Shown here: positions 54,866-62,160 of the stretch, piece by piece
Layout: each line of letters begins with the position of its first letter
How positions within the stretch are numbered: the stretch's first letter is position 1
DNA from: Nostoc sp. PCC 7107
GTDB lineage: Bacteria; Cyanobacteriota; Cyanobacteriia; Cyanobacteriales; Nostocaceae
Length of the DNA: 64,000 nucleotides
Assembly: GCF_000316625.1 (NCBI RefSeq)
Contig: NC_019676.1
Location: 4,606,501 to 4,670,500, forward strand
Direction of reading: 5' to 3'
Position numbers and translations under genes: made by a program
Notes under the pieces: model-generated
The model's input: the letters and a program-made list of their open reading frames with translations, nothing else
Database searches by the model: none
What the model was told of the DNA's origin: nothing

Positions 54866-55099
54866 ATGAATACAAATACACAATTTAACGCTAAAGTTAA
54901 TAACGGCACAATCGAGATTCCCGTTGAGTATCAAGACGAGATACACAACGCCGAAATAGTGCAGATTGTGATATTGAAACCTTTGTCACAAAAGAAACAT
55001 TTTCCACAAACCGGTATCATAGCCCAGCTAACTGCAAATCCTATCCAGATTGCCGATTTCAAACCACTCACCAGAGAAGAAGCAAATGAACGCTGGTGA
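54866..55099 (+). CDS. Antitoxin of a PIN-domain pair (VapB-like)
   Basis: 77 residues: a short beta-rich N-terminus (FNAKVNNGTIEIPVEYQDEI) of the kind that forms a small DNA-binding barrel, then a polar C-terminus ending KPLTREEANERW that should bind the toxin. The sequence does not show a clear AbrB signature, so the class rests mainly on context: it overlaps the PIN toxin by 14 bp (55086-55099), the classic translational coupling of toxin-antitoxin operons. Confidence 0.7.
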   Translation: MNTNTQFNAKVNNGTIEIPVEYQDEIHNAEIVQIVILKPLSQKKHFPQTGIIAQLTANPIQIADFKPLTREEANERW

Positions 55100-55532
55100 G
55101 GTGACACGGTGCTTTGTTGATTCCAATATTTGGCTTTATCGTTTTATTCTGAACTCTAGCGAGCCAAGCGCTGTACAAAAGCAACAAATAGCTACAACCG
55201 TTACCAGTCAAGAAAACCTACTTGTTAGTACGCAAGTTATCAATGAAGTTTGTGCAAATTTAATCCGTAAAGCAGGTTTTGATAATTCACAGATTCAAAA
55301 CTTAATTGAAGATTTTTCCGAAGGTTGTGAAATATTGCCTGTCTCACTAGAAACACTTCAGTATGCAGTCAAATTGCGCTCTCACTATTTGTTCTCGTTT
55401 TGGGATAGTCTGATTGTTGCTAGTGCAGTTTTAGGGCAAGCAAGTATTTTGTACTCAGAAGATATGCAAAATGGCTTAATGATTGAAAATTTCTTAGAGA
55501 TTGTGAATCCATTTGTAGAGCCAAAGACTTGA
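55086..55532 (+). CDS. PIN-domain toxin (VapC-like ribonuclease)
   Basis: 148 residues from the ATG at 55086 (MNAGEVTRCFVDSNIWLY). PIN domain with the four acidic metal ligands visible: Asp in FVDSNIWLY, Glu in INEVCANLIRK, Asp in SFWDSLIVASA and Asp in LYSEDMQNG. Family members are Mg-dependent RNases that cut tRNA or rRNA. The frame is intact and all ligands are present, so this is the one apparently functional toxin in the cluster. Coordinates of the start are set by the overlap with the antitoxin. Confidence 0.85.
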   Translation: MNAGEVTRCFVDSNIWLYRFILNSSEPSAVQKQQIATTVTSQENLLVSTQVINEVCANLIRKAGFDNSQIQNLIEDFSEGCEILPVSLETLQYAVKLRSHYLFSFWDSLIVASAVLGQASILYSEDMQNGLMIENFLEIVNPFVEPKT

Positions 55533-55971: not shown

Positions 55972-58900
55972 TTAAATGATTCTGGTGAAGAGGATTTGCT
56001 TTAAGCTTCGTATTGTGCGAGTCGTAACATTACGCTGATGCCAAGCTTGATAGAAATCAGGGTAAGGCAGATTTTGGGCGCATTCCCAGGCTAAATCGTA
56101 GTATTCACCATCTAGTTGCCAATAATTACTTAAAGCTTTGACTGCTTGAAGACGATCTTCGCTATTTTGTAGAAATTCTTCTAAGCTTTCTGCTGCCCAT
56201 CTAGAAGAGTACTTATTTATACTAGTTTGTAGCACATATACCAAAGCCAAGATTGCTTCTTTATTACCTGGGTCGATTCTCCATAAGCTATCTGCTACCA
56301 ACCAACGGGTAGGATCATTATCTCTAGAGTTATTGGCAGGGATGGATTTCAGCACTTTTTCTAAGGCAGAGATCGCTGTTTCATCACCTATAGCAATTTC
56401 CTCCAAGCTATCCTTTGCCCAAAAACGGATTTTTTCATCCAGTGTTTTTGATTGTATTAGTTGCACTAAGGCAGAGATCGCAAAATCATGACCTGTGCTA
56501 ATTTTTTTTAAGCTTTTTGTTGCATACTCACTGGTATCGTCATCCAGCGTTTTGGATTCTAGCACTTTCACCAAGGCTGAAATCGCTATTTTATTGCCTG
56601 GGTCGACTTCTCCTAATATACTTGCTGCATAACTACGGTTTTTGTTATCTACAGCTTTGGATTGCAGTACTTTCACCAAAGAAGCGATCGCAAATTCATC
56701 ACCTGTACCGATTTCCTCTAAGTTATATGCTGCATCTTGACGGGTTTTGTCATCCACAGTAGTTGATTGCAGCAAATCTACCAAGGCAGAAATCGCCACT
56801 TTATTCCCTGGATCGATTTTGCCTAAATTTTCTGCTAACCGACAACGAATTTTGTTATTGAGAGTTAAGGATTGTAGCACTGCTTCCAAGGTAGCGATCA
56901 TAAATTCATTACCTGTGCCGATTTCCTCTAAGTTATATGCTGCCTTCTCACGAGTTCCGTCATTCACAGTTGTGGATTGCAGCAAATCCACCAAGGCAGA
57001 AATCGCTATTTTATTACCTGGATCGATTATCCCTAAGCTTTCTGCTAACCGACGACGAATTTTGTTATTCAGAGTTGAGAATTGTAACCGTTGCTCCAAG
57101 ATAGTGATCGCTGTTTCATTGTCTGTACTGATTTCCCTTAACCAGTATGCTATCGACCGACAGGTGTTGTTATCGACTGTTTTTGATCGCAGTAGCTTCA
57201 CCAAGGCGTTGATCGCAATCTGATTACCTGGGTCGGTTCTCCCTAATATAATTGCTGCCCTCCGACGGATGTTGTAATCTCCAGTTTTTGATTGTAGTAA
57301 TTGTTTCAAGGCGGCGATCGCAATCTGATTGCCTGAATCGGTTCTTCCTAATATAGTTGCTGCCTGCAAACGGATGTCGTCGTCATCCAAACTTGTAGAT
57401 TGCACCACTTGTTCTAAGGCGGTAATTACTGTTTTATTGCCTGGGTTTATTGTCTCTAAGCTTTGTGCTACATTCCAACGGACTTTATCATCTACATTGC
57501 TTGATTGCAGTAGTTCTACTAACGATGCGATCGCAAATTCATTGCCTTTGCCGATTTTTTCTAAGATATTTGTAGCCTGCGAACAGATTGTGTCATCTAA
57601 AGTACTTGATTGTAGGACTTCCACTAAGGCAGCGATCGCAAATTCATTGCCTTTGCCGATTTTCTCTAAGCTTTCTGCTACACGCCAACGGGTTACATTA
57701 TCAGCAGTTGTGGATTGCAGTAGTTGTAACAAGGCTGGGATCGCAAATTCATTTCCTGGGTCAATTTTCTCTAAACTCTCAAATGCCTCTAAACGGTTGT
57801 AGTAATCCGCAGTTGCAGATTGCAGCACCCGCACCAAAGCAAAAATTACTGTTTCATTGCTTGGATCGATTTTCTGTAAGCTTTCTGCTACCTTTCTAAG
57901 GGTGGAGTCGCTCACATCTGGTAATTTTAGAAGTTGGACTAAAGCGGCGATTGCTCTTTTATTGCCTATACCTATTTTTTCTAAACTATATATTACATTT
58001 CCACCTGTTCTGTTATCCAGATTAATGGATTGCAGTAATTGAGCCAAAGCTGCGATCGCAGTTTCATTACCTGTGCCAATTTTCCCTAATATCTTTATTG
58101 CCTCTAAATGAGTATCTTCATCCACTGTTGTGCATTGCAGTAATTGAGACAAGGCTGCGATCGCAGTTTCATTACCTGTGCCAATTTTTCCTAAAATCTT
58201 TATTGCCTCTAAATGAGTATCTTCATCCACTGTTGTGCATTGCAGTAATTGAGCCAAGGCTGCGATTACCGCTTCATTGTCTTTGCCAATTTTCTCTAAA
58301 CTTTTTTTTACTGGAAAAAATAAGAATACTCTGCCAGATGTTTTACTTTGTGCCACCTGCAAACGAGTGTGGTGATCCGCAGATGTGGCTTTTAGCACTT
58401 GCACTAAGGATGCGATCATTGTTTCATTGCGGGGATCGATTTCCCCTAACCTATCTGCTACATATCTGCGGGTGTTGTCATCCAGAATTTTAGATTGCAG
58501 CACTTGTTCCAAAGGCGCTATTGCTTTTGTGCGTTCTGTCTCTTGCAATACTGATCTAGCAGCCTCTGAAATTGAATCACGAAATTTTACCCAATTCTGT
58601 TTTTTAGATGAATAGCCAAAGTCCCATTTGATAATTTGCGCTACTATTTCATCTGCTTGTGAACAATCTTTAAATTCAGCAATTCCCACCGCCGCTAAAA
58701 AGTAGGCGCGATATTCATAAAAACCCTTGTCTACATCTTTCCTATTCCACTGACCACATCCATCTTTAAAATTAATTAAAGCATTAATAAACTCTTGCTT
58801 TTGCTGTTTTAAATTTTCTTCTGGTCGTCCTAACCACAGCAATATTGTCTGCTTCCACTGTGGTTCAAAGATGCGATAAGTTCCCTTACTAGGATTTTTG

Positions 58901-60096
58901 GGAACATGGTTGAAAAAGAAATCCCAGTGATTAATCGCTTTAGCAGCAAAATACTCTTGAAATGAGGCATGAAAAAAAGCGTAAACTTTTTTATCATCTA
59001 CTCCTATACAGTTCAACCAGCCACGATTTAGTGCCAATTTCAGCAGCACCTGATCTTCTTGTTCCTTAAAGACGGAATTAACAAAATCTTGCCGCAAGCG
59101 AAAACGGGTTGTTTCTTTGTCTATTGCTGTTTTAGCTAATTCCCCAAGTTTGAGATTGAGTTGTTGCTCTTGGTGAAATGTTGTAGGAAATTTGTCTTGT
59201 TTCCACTCATAAAATTTATCAACAAATCGCTGATAAAGTCCAGCTTGAGTATCGGGTAACTTCCCATCTACCGATTGCCAATTCAAGCACAGCAGCGTCA
59301 ACCGCAGAGGATTTTTCACTAAATCCTGAATCCGTTCTTTACCTGGTTCTTTCAAAGCAGTACATAATTGCTTTCCAGCTTCGGGATTAGCCGCAAACCA
59401 TTTGTGAATAAATTTCTCTACTTGTTCTGGATAAGAAAAATCTAAAGTGCGATAAATATCAAAATCATCAAGTGCATTAATACCGCCATCCCACAAATTA
59501 ACTCGACAAGTTAATACAATTCGCGCTTGACTAATTAATCCTGATTCACGAAATTGTCGGGCAATTTCTGTTAGCGGATTCCCTGAAAATGCAGACATTT
59601 CATCTAATCCATCTAGCACTAGCCAGACATGATTTTGATTAAACAGAGCAATAAAATCATTTTCCTGTTGCTGAGTAGGTTTAGCTTTACCTTTTTTCCT
59701 CACAGCAGTAGTTAGCCAAGTCTTTAATAGATATTCCTCTAATTTTTGCCCATACAAATCTGCTAAAGATACCCAAATCACAATTGACTGTTGAATCTCA
59801 CGAGATACCCAATCAGCTATCTGCTGTAATAGTGTTGTTTTTCCTGCGCCTGGTTCACCAATAATTGCAATTCGCCTACCCTTGCTTTTCGGCGTGTTCT
59901 TTTGTTTGAGAACTTCTTCTAAAAAAGCATCATGCTCAAATGTTTTGGTGACTTCTGTCTCCTTGTACAGTTCTGAACCCTGTTCTGGAGATATATCATC
60001 CTTATCCTTACGCTTGGGTGGTTTTTTACGCTCAACTAATCCCAGTGGTACATAAACATCATCAACTTGCAGTGCAACGCCTTCAGTTAATGTCAA
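55972..60096 (-). CDS. NACHT-domain STAND ATPase with about 20 C-terminal HEAT-like repeats
   Basis: 1374 residues from the TTG at 60096. An N-terminal linker contains VYVPLGLVERKK. The NACHT NTPase covers about 72-330: Walker A GEPGAGKTTLL (Gly80-Thr87), Walker B VWLVLDGLDEM, and further STAND landmarks TCRVNLWDG, NPLRLTLLCLNW and FFHASFQEYFAAKAI (about 395). From about 545 to 1330 come some 20 HEAT/PBS-lyase-like repeats of about 35-37 residues (A..AL..LLQS.T.D...R..AA..L..I..GN). This architecture matches bacterial NLR-related antiphage proteins (bNACHT type), in which the repeats sense a target. Conserved residues (LTPDDWREICREIIAERRKLTTNPLT) lie in frame upstream without an ATG or GTG, back to a TGA at 60202-60204. 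The true start is thus unclear. Confidence 0.8.
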   Translation of the reverse strand: MTLTEGVALQVDDVYVPLGLVERKKPPKRKDKDDISPEQGSELYKETEVTKTFEHDAFLEEVLKQKNTPKSKGRRIAIIGEPGAGKTTLLQQIADWVSREIQQSIVIWVSLADLYGQKLEEYLLKTWLTTAVRKKGKAKPTQQQENDFIALFNQNHVWLVLDGLDEMSAFSGNPLTEIARQFRESGLISQARIVLTCRVNLWDGGINALDDFDIYRTLDFSYPEQVEKFIHKWFAANPEAGKQLCTALKEPGKERIQDLVKNPLRLTLLCLNWQSVDGKLPDTQAGLYQRFVDKFYEWKQDKFPTTFHQEQQLNLKLGELAKTAIDKETTRFRLRQDFVNSVFKEQEDQVLLKLALNRGWLNCIGVDDKKVYAFFHASFQEYFAAKAINHWDFFFNHVPKNPSKGTYRIFEPQWKQTILLWLGRPEENLKQQKQEFINALINFKDGCGQWNRKDVDKGFYEYRAYFLAAVGIAEFKDCSQADEIVAQIIKWDFGYSSKKQNWVKFRDSISEAARSVLQETERTKAIAPLEQVLQSKILDDNTRRYVADRLGEIDPRNETMIASLVQVLKATSADHHTRLQVAQSKTSGRVFLFFPVKKSLEKIGKDNEAVIAALAQLLQCTTVDEDTHLEAIKILGKIGTGNETAIAALSQLLQCTTVDEDTHLEAIKILGKIGTGNETAIAALAQLLQSINLDNRTGGNVIYSLEKIGIGNKRAIAALVQLLKLPDVSDSTLRKVAESLQKIDPSNETVIFALVRVLQSATADYYNRLEAFESLEKIDPGNEFAIPALLQLLQSTTADNVTRWRVAESLEKIGKGNEFAIAALVEVLQSSTLDDTICSQATNILEKIGKGNEFAIASLVELLQSSNVDDKVRWNVAQSLETINPGNKTVITALEQVVQSTSLDDDDIRLQAATILGRTDSGNQIAIAALKQLLQSKTGDYNIRRRAAIILGRTDPGNQIAINALVKLLRSKTVDNNTCRSIAYWLREISTDNETAITILEQRLQFSTLNNKIRRRLAESLGIIDPGNKIAISALVDLLQSTTVNDGTREKAAYNLEEIGTGNEFMIATLEAVLQSLTLNNKIRCRLAENLGKIDPGNKVAISALVDLLQSTTVDDKTRQDAAYNLEEIGTGDEFAIASLVKVLQSKAVDNKNRSYAASILGEVDPGNKIAISALVKVLESKTLDDDTSEYATKSLKKISTGHDFAISALVQLIQSKTLDEKIRFWAKDSLEEIAIGDETAISALEKVLKSIPANNSRDNDPTRWLVADSLWRIDPGNKEAILALVYVLQTSINKYSSRWAAESLEEFLQNSEDRLQAVKALSNYWQLDGEYYDLAWECAQNLPYPDFYQAWHQRNVTTRTIRSLKQILFTRII
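58032..58262. repeat. Near-identical 105-bp direct repeats in the HEAT region
   Basis: Two full copies (period 105 bp, 35 codons) differ by only a few bases, for example TCTTTATTGCCTCTAAATG at 58092 and again at 58197, followed by a partial third copy. They translate to the nearly identical HEAT unit QLLQCTTVDEDTHLEA, pointing to recent expansion. Confidence 0.85.
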
Positions 60097-60201
60097 AGGA
60101 TTTGTTGTCAGCTTTCGCCGTTCTGCAATTATTTCACGACAGATTTCACGCCAGTCATCGGGAGTTAACTTTGTCCCCTCCTCCCCTAGAGACGACTGTA
60201 G

Positions 60202-60648
60202 TCAGTTGTTATTTATTGTCCCAATAGTGATTGATTGACCAGCTATTCCACCTTTCTCTACCGTGAGATTGTCTGCTAACTTCGCAAAGTTATTTACAAC
60301 TGACGGATGAGACTGGATTTCGGCTGCATTATTTTTAATTTTCCTAGCAGCCTCAGACTGACTGCTGTTAACTGCTGCTTCCACATCCACAACAGCTTGA
60401 GCAATTTCGGGGTCTTGTGCGGCTTGTGTAAGTTCCAGCACTGCTTGACCGTAATCTAATAGCTGCGGTTCATTACTGGTAAGAGATGGTGCTTTATTCT
60501 TTTGGCGCAGTAATTCTATCAACTTACCAGGAGCAGTCCATAAAACATCACCAAGATTTTCGCCTGTTTTCTCCACAGCCTTGGTCAAAAGTGTGGTAAT
60601 AACAGCAGAGATCGCAGTAGCTACAGCAGTCAAGCTCACAGTTATCAT
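60202..60648 (-). CDS. Small protein with N-terminal membrane helix, in frame with the NACHT gene
   Basis: 148 residues, no named family. It has a hydrophobic N-terminus (MITVSLTAVATAISAVITTLLTKAVEKTGENLGDVLW, helix about 3-25), then a helical region about 60-130 (PQLLDYGQAVLELTQAAQDPEIAQAVVDVE) and ends GGIAGQSITIGTINNN. I associate this pattern with small proteins or N-terminal domains coupled to NACHT/AAA proteins in cyanobacteria. The stop TGA (60202-60204) is followed in the same frame by 35 sense codons to the TTG start of the NACHT gene, and those codons read like conserved NACHT N-terminus. It may be a separate partner, or the first domain of one split fusion. Confidence 0.65.
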   Translation of the reverse strand: MITVSLTAVATAISAVITTLLTKAVEKTGENLGDVLWTAPGKLIELLRQKNKAPSLTSNEPQLLDYGQAVLELTQAAQDPEIAQAVVDVEAAVNSSQSEAARKIKNNAAEIQSHPSVVNNFAKLADNLTVEKGGIAGQSITIGTINNN

Positions 60649-60809: not shown

Positions 60810-61619
60810 TTACCTATATTTCTCCACAGATTCCACAGCAACATTAAATTGTTGAGCAATCTGTTCTACACTCATCCCAGTTTTTAGTAACAGTGGGACA
60901 GCAACTTTCAAAATTTCAGAGCGACCTTGTTCTAGACCTTGTTCTAGACCTTGTTCTAGACCTTCAGCTTTGGCTTCTTGATATACTCTTGTTTGCTCTA
61001 TAGTCAGTCCTAGCATAGCTTCTACTTCCTCTCGACTCAAAGACGAAAACTTGTAAACAGCAATTGTCGTGATAATTTCGATGATTTCGGTTTTTGGCAA
61101 TATACCTGTTTCTTCTAATTTTACTCGTTGAATTAGTTGCTTGGCTTGCTCTGCCATTGTTTCCGAGGATGCGGTTGTCAACTGCATTAAGTTGATGCCT
61201 ATTGGCAGCGTATCAGAAGTACCTAACTCATCCAAATAAATGCGCTGCACTTGGTCGCTGTTTAAAAATATGCGATGAGTTCTTTTATCGTTTGGCTCTA
61301 AAGAGCGTGATGGAAATATTACCACACAGTACCAATCATCGTATTGAGATTGATTGCGGTTCAAATACATCAATGATTCAGTAAAAAACCGATGATAAAG
61401 ACCTTCATCTTTCTGAAATTGCACTTCGGCAAAAAAGATAACTCTAGATGTTGCGTCTTCTGGTGGTAGGAAAACACCATCAATCCGAAAAGCGGTTTCT
61501 TTCACCTCCACTGACTCAAATCGATAGTTTTGCGCCTGTGGAGGACGATTATCAACGAGTTCAAAGATTAAGGCTGGAAATCGCTTGAAAATTTGGTAAT
61601 AAATGGAGTCACGTTTCAC
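60810..61619 (-). CDS. DUF2887 / Rpn-like PD-(D/E)XK family protein
   Basis: A 269-residue protein of the DUF2887 type, part of the transposase-like Rpn nuclease family, abundant in cyanobacteria. Marks: SIYYQIFKRFPALIFELV, RIDGVFLPP (nuclease Asp), IFFAEVQFQKDEGLYHRFFTE (E-x-Q/K active-site pair) and SLMYLNRNQSQYDDWYCVVIFPSR. A coiled-coil region (LTIEQTRVYQEAKAEGLEQG...) contains three tandem 12-bp repeats giving LEQGLEQGLEQG, and the C-terminus has a helix-turn-helix-like MSVEQIAQQFNVAVESVEKY. RecA-independent recombination is known for some Rpn proteins; that is not shown here. It lies upstream of the NACHT module on the same strand, with a 161-bp gap. Confidence 0.82.
   Translation of the reverse strand: MKRDSIYYQIFKRFPALIFELVDNRPPQAQNYRFESVEVKETAFRIDGVFLPPEDATSRVIFFAEVQFQKDEGLYHRFFTESLMYLNRNQSQYDDWYCVVIFPSRSLEPNDKRTHRIFLNSDQVQRIYLDELGTSDTLPIGINLMQLTTASSETMAEQAKQLIQRVKLEETGILPKTEIIEIITTIAVYKFSSLSREEVEAMLGLTIEQTRVYQEAKAEGLEQGLEQGLEQGRSEILKVAVPLLLKTGMSVEQIAQQFNVAVESVEKYR
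60925..60963. repeat. Three 12-bp tandem repeats inside the DUF2887 gene
   Basis: CCTTGTTCTAGA is repeated three times (60925-60960) with a partial fourth unit, encoding the Leu-Glu-Gln-Gly units. A repeat number change would add or remove four residues without breaking the frame. Confidence 0.9.
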
Positions 61620-61704
61620 AAAAATATCAAAATATTTTGATTATTCAGGATTAATTTTATCAGTCTTTATCTGCATATCTAACAACAAAGCGCTCACTCT
61701 ATAA

Positions 61705-62160
61705 TTAAGGTATAAAATCTGCGTCAAGAATCTGAGCTACAGAAAAAGGTGATTCTTGTGGGAATAGTTCTGATGGAAGTCGATATTTTCTGATGGTATC
61801 ATTTCTAGCATCTGTATAACAGTCTAGAAATACATCCTCTAAAACAGATTTTAAACTGGGACTATCTTCTAGAAGATAAATTATTTGTCGTCTTTGCTCA
61901 ACAATAGTATTACGCCACCCTCTGGCATTGTCATCTTTTTCTTCTATCCAGAATTGCAGTTTTAATAAATGTTCAATTAAGATTATTAGACGATTTTTAA
62001 GTTCTTTCTTTTCACTTCGCCCCATACTATCAATTTCTTCAATTAAATTCGCAATATCTAATTGTTCCAGTTTACCTTCCTGCAAAAGTTTAACTGTAGT
62101 TTGTATCCATAAGTAAAAATCTTGTTCATATAATGTTTTGTTAGTCTCAGAGGTCAACAT
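61705..62160 (-). CDS. DUF29 domain protein
   Basis: A 151-residue helical protein with the DUF29 pattern: LYEQDFYLWIQTTVKLLQEGKLEQLDIANLIEEIDSMGRSEKKELKNRLIILIEHLLKLQFW and W-R-N-T-I-V-E-Q-R. DUF29 proteins are found in large numbers in cyanobacteria, often in accessory regions, and their function is unknown. It is preceded by about 165 bp from flv3 and followed by the DUF2887 gene 85 bp on, same strand. No catalytic motif stands out. Confidence 0.88.
   Translation of the reverse strand: MLTSETNKTLYEQDFYLWIQTTVKLLQEGKLEQLDIANLIEEIDSMGRSEKKELKNRLIILIEHLLKLQFWIEEKDDNARGWRNTIVEQRRQIIYLLEDSPSLKSVLEDVFLDCYTDARNDTIRKYRLPSELFPQESPFSVAQILDADFIP

Follow-up and report, generated by a model that had tools for sequence, protein, structure and literature searches.

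A conserved stop codon and RNA pseudoknot between effector and receptor-like genes of filamentous cyanobacteria: a candidate programmed readthrough element

Stop-codon readthrough stimulated by a pseudoknot is known mainly from viruses. We describe a junction with the features of such a signal in the cyanobacterium Nostoc sp. PCC 7107. It lies on the minus strand of a 64,000-nt stretch of contig NC_019676.1 (positions 4,606,501 to 4,670,500; hereafter the window, to which coordinates refer), between a small effector-like open reading frame (ORF1) and a receptor-like frame (ORF2), separated by a single in-frame TGA. Judged from comparison of related loci, it most probably acts as an element for programmed stop-codon readthrough that joins the effector to a receptor of STAND/NLR type, a reading to which we assign a probability of roughly 0.8.

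In the murine leukaemia virus (MuLV) gag-pol signal, as described in PMC4178896, a UAG is followed by an 8-nt spacer and a two-stem pseudoknot. The junction in Nostoc likewise combines an in-frame stop, a short unpaired spacer (9 nt) and a compact two-stem H-type pseudoknot, with a presumed free upstream product and a minor fusion; unlike the viral signal, it occurs in bacterial chromosomal or plasmid genes, uses mostly UGA and rarely UAG, differs in the sequences of spacer and stems, and joins effector and receptor where MuLV joins Gag and Pol. The gene arrangement resembles BASS/BELL amyloid signalling in filamentous bacteria (PMC7889193, in part), in which a small helical effector with a C-terminal motif adjoins an NLR-type gene, and 10 of 14 relatives of ORF1 that are not followed by a pseudoknot share their tail motif with the next protein, as in BASS. 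Unlike the BASS receptors described there, however, the receptor of the pseudoknot systems has no encoded second copy of the motif, which would come only by readthrough. A C after the stop is a mark of a weak stop according to PMC4132726, and the junctions resemble the alphavirus and vertebrate UGA-CUA context treated there in that UGA is followed by CUA in many of them and by C in 123 of 130; here, however, CUG is nearly as common, a pseudoknot follows, and bacterial release factors differ. Bacterial selenocysteine insertion sequences (SECIS; PMC8211752, in part) also place an RNA structure within the coding sequence right after UGA, but in our case SelB was not found (41 genomes), UAG is used as well, and the structure is a pseudoknot and not a stem-loop. 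No description of the junction was found in the literature covered, bioRxiv and most subscription journals being outside the search. The parts are of known kinds, readthrough pseudoknot and NLR amyloid signalling, and their combination in bacterial cellular genes appears to be new.

In the window, ORF1 (60205–60648, minus strand) encodes a 148-residue protein, assigned here as a Bell-like effector with a helical domain and an amyloid-motif-like C-terminal tail modelled at low confidence (approximately residues 131–148); 'Bell-like' is a label coined here and does not derive from published BELL profiles. Pfam returned no convincing family. In an AlphaFold (AF2) model, ORF1 was predicted as a helical domain (mean predicted local distance difference test score, pLDDT, 72.4; below 50 for residues 131–143) with a long first helix (residues 6–26), which makes the 'membrane-helix protein' of the initial annotation plausible while not establishing the membrane part. 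The TGA (60202–60204), the proposed readthrough codon, is in frame with ORF2 (55972–60201), as that annotation had noted, and the frame remains open for 1409 codons up to its own stop at 55974–55972. ORF2 encodes a NACHT nucleoside triphosphatase (NTPase; PF05729, 2e-13, P-loop present) with HEAT repeats (HEAT_2, 2.5e-51) and NCC-H (1.8e-11); the best PADLOC match of the receptor, mad8 (2.7e-6), is confined to the P-loop region. The first 35 codons after the TGA begin with LQSSLGEEGTKLTPDDWREI and contain, again as annotated, no ATG or GTG, nor any TTG until that at 60094–60096 (codon 35), the first canonical start codon of the frame and unlikely to be the true start.

The stop is followed by the 9-nt spacer CTACAGTCG (60193–60201, delimited by junction alignment) and the two stems of the pseudoknot. 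Stem 1 pairs UCUC (60189–60192) with GGGA (60174–60177) and is based on alignment and covariation for both strands; stem 2 pairs GGGAG (60181–60185), placed by alignment with weaker covariation than stem 1, with CUCCC (60160–60164), placed by alignment and covariation. With the T of the stop as position 1, the first stem is formed by positions 13–16 with 28–31, and stem 2 by approximately 20–24 with 41–45; in a shorter common form the later pseudoknot positions lie 3 nt earlier. The purine run GGGGAGGAGGGG (60186–60175), to which the initial annotation had drawn attention, is real, but it need not be a ribosome-binding site, because the 5' strand of stem 2 falls within it, along with three of the four 3'-strand bases of stem 1.

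Conservation of the stop, the frame and the RNA fold

Relatives of ORF1 were present in 26 of 60 genomes searched. Many of the fetched loci showed the same succession of a stop, usually CTA or CTG, usually AAG or CAG, TCG and a run rich in G, with another ORF, mostly of STAND type, continuing in the same frame. From loci L001–L050, 32 junctions were picked by regular expression, and a covariance model (R1), the search with which is blind to reading frame, was built on 31 of them. Within the order it matched in 108 of 388 genomes (62 of 149 genera) and, in a sample of the phylum, in 34 of 386 genomes, of which four lie outside the order and each have an in-frame stop (three TGA, one TAG). Stop, frame and RNA fold together span genomes of 18 families of the order in addition to these four. 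Carriers include Nostoc flagelliforme FACHB-838, a Calothrix metagenome-assembled genome, Tolypothrix sp. PCC 7712, Allocoleopsis franciscana PCC 7113, Nostocales cyanobacterium HT-58-2 and Nostoc sp. C057. A plasmid of Tolypothrix sp. PCC 7601 bears a relative of ORF1 whose near copy in PCC 7712 is followed by the junction. The genome of Nostoc sp. PCC 7107 itself has two matches, the second of which precedes a receptor that clusters with NB-ARC-type proteins.

The order-wide search yielded at least 150 places, of which 130 entered the main statistics, eight had been read earlier, and the last 12 were read afterwards and stand outside the junction, pseudoknot, clustering, tail-copy, tree and Shine-Dalgarno (SD) run statistics. 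At the 130 places the stop was TGA in 125 and TAG in five, and never TAA. In all 130 it was the stop's frame that stayed open longest downstream; its median length was 549 codons, a value limited by how much DNA was fetched, compared with 14 for the better of the other two frames. In four cases it was shorter than 100 codons and ended within the fetched DNA. The last 12 places comprised ten TGA junctions in which the stop's frame was longest (at L266 just 41 codons against 39, the fifth frame of fewer than 100 codons), one chance match (L267) and one TGG (L269). Together, the 142 matches examined contained 140 with a stop (TGA 135, TAG 5, TAA 0), so that the stop is kept in 140 of 141 real junctions, with L269 as the exception. 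Among the eight places read earlier, the downstream frame of L017 is short (32 codons), and L019 has an own start and no junction stop; L010 and L049 are one locus with an interrupted receptor. Over all 151 distinct junctions the count is TGA 146, TAG 5, TAA 0; for comparison, 44 non-overlapping ordinary ORFs of 120 codons or more in the window end in TAA 17, TAG 14 and TGA 13 times. We take the stop between effector and receptor-like gene in filamentous cyanobacteria to be kept by selection.

An H-type pseudoknot 9 nt past the stop is indicated by pairing and covariation, with strong support for stem 1 and moderate support for stem 2. In the 31 sequences, 87.8% of cells in both stems were paired (78.9 ± 1.5 after shuffling; stem 1 alone, 96.8%) and 34 two-sided changes were counted, compared with 14.4 ± 3.9 in shuffled alignments (0 of 500 shuffles); the number of pairs with a two-sided change and the number of further pair types were not above the shuffled level (125 and 351 of 500). 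Over the 151 junctions, a pseudoknot score of at least 18 was reached by 90.7%, compared with 7.6% of codon-shuffled copies. Stem 1 was fully paired in 142 of 151 (35% with shuffled partner strands), a count biased towards structure in that the partner position was picked to favour pairing, with ties falling to steps of 3; the offsets are therefore no evidence for codon-sized insertions. The stem-1 types included CCCG/CGGG, UCCG/CGGA, UCGG/CCGA, CCUG/CAGG, CCGG/CCGG and UCUG/CAGA, several of which recur across four to seven families.

When 106 receptors were placed on a tree, with the same pairing-favouring choice of partner, 18, 20 and 5 two-sided events fell at stem-1 pairs 1, 3 and 4, compared with 0–2 in shifted controls, while pair 2 was nearly invariant. 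When the register was fixed (83 sequences), these three pairs, in the same order, had 13, 15 and 2 events; the best of 981 other column pairs had 9, and 26 of the 981 reached 3. For stem 2, the fixed register gave 4 events at 20–42 (90% paired), 2 at 19–43 (36%), 1 at 21–41 (95%) and none at 22–40 (70%) and 23–39 (82%). The top background pair, with its 9 events, links column 6 (the third base of the post-stop codon) to column 29 (just 3' of stem 1), and may be either an extra pair or a lineage effect. Rfam returned no family at the junction and one chance match, and one exact junction pattern searched in viral contigs gave 0 matches.

Effectors, receptors and the tail motif

The arrangement found at these loci is that of a small effector gene beside an NLR-type gene, with partners of several kinds on both sides. 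ORF1 was Bell-like in 118 of 130 cases, alpha/beta-hydrolase-like in 10 (PGAP1, 1.6e-5 in Pfam for one member), nucleoside-phosphorylase-like in one (a call made by eye; Pfam gave no match on its 111-residue part) and a fragment in one. Most ORF2 proteins belonged to an NB-ARC-like cluster (82) or a NACHT-like one (37); nSTAND, PsbP-like and other modules were rarer partners. An unexpected partner is the PsbP-like protein that the junction links to a Bell-like ORF1 at L187 and L133 (by record annotation and by Pfam, respectively). By eye, the tails of different effector types are alike, as for hydrolase-type L186 and Bell-type L108.

The tail distinguishes loci with and without the pseudoknot. 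The 14 relatives without it were hand-picked, excluding truncated, broken or fused ORF1s (L020/L050, L030, L046), and in the ten mentioned above the next ORF has a start of its own and repeats the ORF1 tail close to the N-terminus (local scores 37–94); in two of these (L041, L191), inspection by eye did not identify the next protein as an NTPase receptor. The remaining four are two truncated ORF1s without a receptor, one contig end and one locus without a receptor-like neighbour. In the pseudoknot systems (n=123), by contrast, no motif shared between the effector C-terminus and the encoded N-terminus of the NLR was found above the shuffled level, the mean tail-copy score being 22.0 against 22.1 for shuffled sequences, with one pair at 35 or above in each set. 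Receptor bodies occurring in both forms are 77.5–87.6% identical (L038, L039 and L035 against L048; L006 and L008 against L007 and L004), and in L019 the tail copy runs stop-free into the linker ISSERERVKSNPP, which elsewhere follows the stop. Four of the own-start loci (L035, L038, L039, L041) have a repeated hairpin-like stretch between ORF1 and the downstream gene.

The initial annotation had asked whether the TGA is a sense codon in some homologue, and this was found once. L269 (G379:C439) has TGG in place of the stop and a single open frame over the whole fetched stretch (744 codons), which encodes in succession an alpha/beta-hydrolase-type effector, the tail NAVLQGNNISGGNVGNTGVFQNNTIENVNF, the TGG, the linker PQSSGEALTKES and an NB-ARC-like receptor; the protein expected from readthrough therefore exists as an ordinary fusion in one genome. 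Such a distribution of tails would be expected of a receptor that depends on the tail and obtains it through a second copy, through readthrough or, once, through plain fusion. A fusion of another kind is seen at L030 (G004:C1:3120986-3124363), where an apparent deletion has linked ORF1 to a receptor's HEAT part in the same frame and both junction and NACHT domain are missing.

Competing explanations

Whether the receptor has a start of its own bears on two rival readings. In one, translation would begin at a normal codon further in (codon 20–50) and the junction would serve some other purpose, for instance in translational coupling or as a regulatory RNA. Three plasmid records do annotate a separate downstream coding sequence, beginning 54, 87 and 306 nt past the ORF1 stop, and yet among 117 receptors with a recognisable Walker A, 17 have no ATG, GTG or TTG ahead of it (the first lies inside it, as the second residue, in 12, and past it in five), and in 79 the first ATG comes later than the Walker A start. 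Synonymous divergence (pS) in 11 NACHT-type sequences was 0.073 over the first 16 codons, that is, spacer and pseudoknot, 0.244 over codons 16–35 and 0.286 over codons 35–62, and the ratio of nonsynonymous to synonymous divergence (pN/pS) was 0.44 and 0.17 over the latter two segments. Because a start is present at codon 23 in five of the 11, the start-free test was limited to the other six, which have none before codon 35: there pS was 0.045, 0.206 and 0.201, and pN/pS 0.28 in codons 16–35 and 0.25 in codons 35–62. The low pS followed by low pN/pS therefore points to RNA constraint on the first 16 codons and to protein constraint ahead of any start codon. Receptors with an own start, moreover, bear the tail motif at the N-terminus. 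We consider an internal canonical start very unlikely. The main rival would place initiation, coupled to termination or driven by the pseudoknot, at a non-canonical codon just past the stop, so that the pseudoknot would recruit the ribosome to a separate receptor; the initial annotation had listed a non-canonical start among its options. The codon at this point, however, is one of ten, including CCA, CAG and AAG (CTA 54, CTG 52, CCA 7, CAG 4, CTC 3, CCG 3, AAG 3, ATA 2, GTG 1, GTA 1; n=130), 5 of 130 junctions have an SD-like run within the 17 nt preceding the stop, against 30 of 124 before ORF1 starts, and the frame is conserved throughout, though initiation would not need it. The two common pseudoknot lengths differ by 3 nt, as expected if translated, and L269 shows effector and receptor naturally fused at this very position. 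These observations disfavour such initiation, which we hold to be improbable even though most loci lack a canonical start near the stop (median first start codon, codon 30), the purine-rich strands could mimic a ribosome-binding sequence, and GTG or ATG directly follows the stop in three loci (GTG in L022 and L153, ATG in L266).

Two further readings take the stop either as recoded by other means or as an accident. A UGA followed at once by RNA structure within a coding sequence is reminiscent of selenocysteine insertion with a SECIS-like hairpin, but selB exceeded the cut-off in none of 41 genomes (the best matches being frames of about 415 residues, the size of EF-Tu), tRNA-Sec was barely above the cut-off in three of the 41, which do not include that of the window and of which the two checked were tRNA-Leu and tRNA-Tyr, and UAG takes the place of UGA at 5 of 151 junctions and, beyond the order, in one genome; the probability of this reading is accordingly minimal. 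A single in-frame stop between two domains could also mark a recently inactivated gene, one of the options of the initial annotation, or an assembly error, which is contradicted by the sharing of stop, frame and RNA fold among 151 distinct junctions in 18 families and four genomes outside the order and can hardly be credited. All four, selenocysteine, recent inactivation, canonical internal start and termination-coupled initiation, were rejected as readings. As to a dedicated suppressor tRNA, ARAGORN found no UCA, CUA or UUA anticodon in the stretches covering the 76 tRNA places that Rfam marks in the window's genome, with two anticodon loops that it could not assign and one stretch (L239) without an ARAGORN gene. 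The two unassignable anticodons belong to one tRNA (tcca) in an array of 27 tRNA genes (L236:1310-3946; genome positions 3484809-3487445) and to one (tg) at L237.

Readthrough giving two products, the remaining option of the initial annotation, is strongly supported by the conserved stop and frame, the pseudoknot covariation, the missing starts, the complementary occurrence of tail copies in relatives without the pseudoknot and the single natural fusion. Several points weigh against it nonetheless. Model R1 includes the stop columns, which biases its matches towards stops, although TAG and TGG variants were found. Stem 2 is less supported than stem 1 (80.6% of cells paired in the 31 sequences, besides the three low values of 36%, 70% and 82% with the fixed register). 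In some loci a start codon at codons 20–25 makes a separate receptor possible too, as does the start directly after the stop in the three loci named above. The shuffled control for tail copies covers the pseudoknot systems only, and not the 14 relatives without a pseudoknot. For ORF1, Pfam and NCBIfam gave no consistent or named family, and Foldseek of the model against the PDB gave no match (best E 2.4) and none to HeLo-type folds.

Proposed mechanism and surroundings of the locus

According to the readthrough reading, some ribosomes most likely pass the stop with the help of the conserved folded RNA that follows it, and a single message would yield both a free effector and an effector-receptor fusion. 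Most ribosomes would terminate at the UGA and release the small effector, with its helical Bell-like domain and putative amyloid-type tail, while the compact pseudoknot 9 nt past the weak stop UGA-C would cause a minority to decode the stop by a near-cognate tRNA and to remain in frame. The resulting fusion of effector, tail and receptor (ORF1-NACHT-HEAT), some 170–175 kDa as estimated from 1558 residues, would itself be the receptor. Upon a trigger its NTPase part would oligomerise, and the clustered tails would template the abundant free effector, which would then act, probably at the membrane. Readthrough would in this way fix the ratio of effector to receptor, following the logic of Gag and Gag-Pol, and stand in for the second motif copy of two-gene BASS systems. 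Readthrough proper, its level and the inserted amino acid are inferred, as are amyloid templating and a cell-death or defence output; templating and membrane action are carried over from the BASS/BELL literature (PMC7889193).

If readthrough holds, bacterial cellular genes would join the known cases of pseudoknot-stimulated readthrough, and an immune-type receptor would be wired to its effector in a new way, by one mRNA, two products and one shared motif. Many such receptor genes may then carry a wrong N-terminus in their annotation, because the three plasmid records place starts 54–306 nt past the stop. The claim is open to direct testing by short reporters. We further consider it probable, with somewhat less confidence than for readthrough itself, that stop, 9-nt spacer and pseudoknot constitute a transferable RNA element that has spread through filamentous cyanobacteria and joins unrelated effectors (Bell-like, alpha/beta-hydrolase-like, nucleoside-phosphorylase-like) to unrelated partners (NB-ARC, NACHT, nSTAND, PsbP-like and others), readthrough supplying the signalling motif of the receptor and setting the stoichiometry. 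It would possibly be the first family of readthrough pseudoknots outside selenocysteine insertion in cellular bacterial genes, and its level of readthrough may respond to translation stress in infection.

Upstream of ORF1 on the minus strand, the neighbouring genes encode a DUF2887 protein (2.3e-77) and a DUF29 protein (1.3e-51), at 60810–62160. On the other side, convergent with the NACHT gene, two small overlapping ORFs on the plus strand (54866–55532) resemble, by eye, an antitoxin and a PIN-type toxin.

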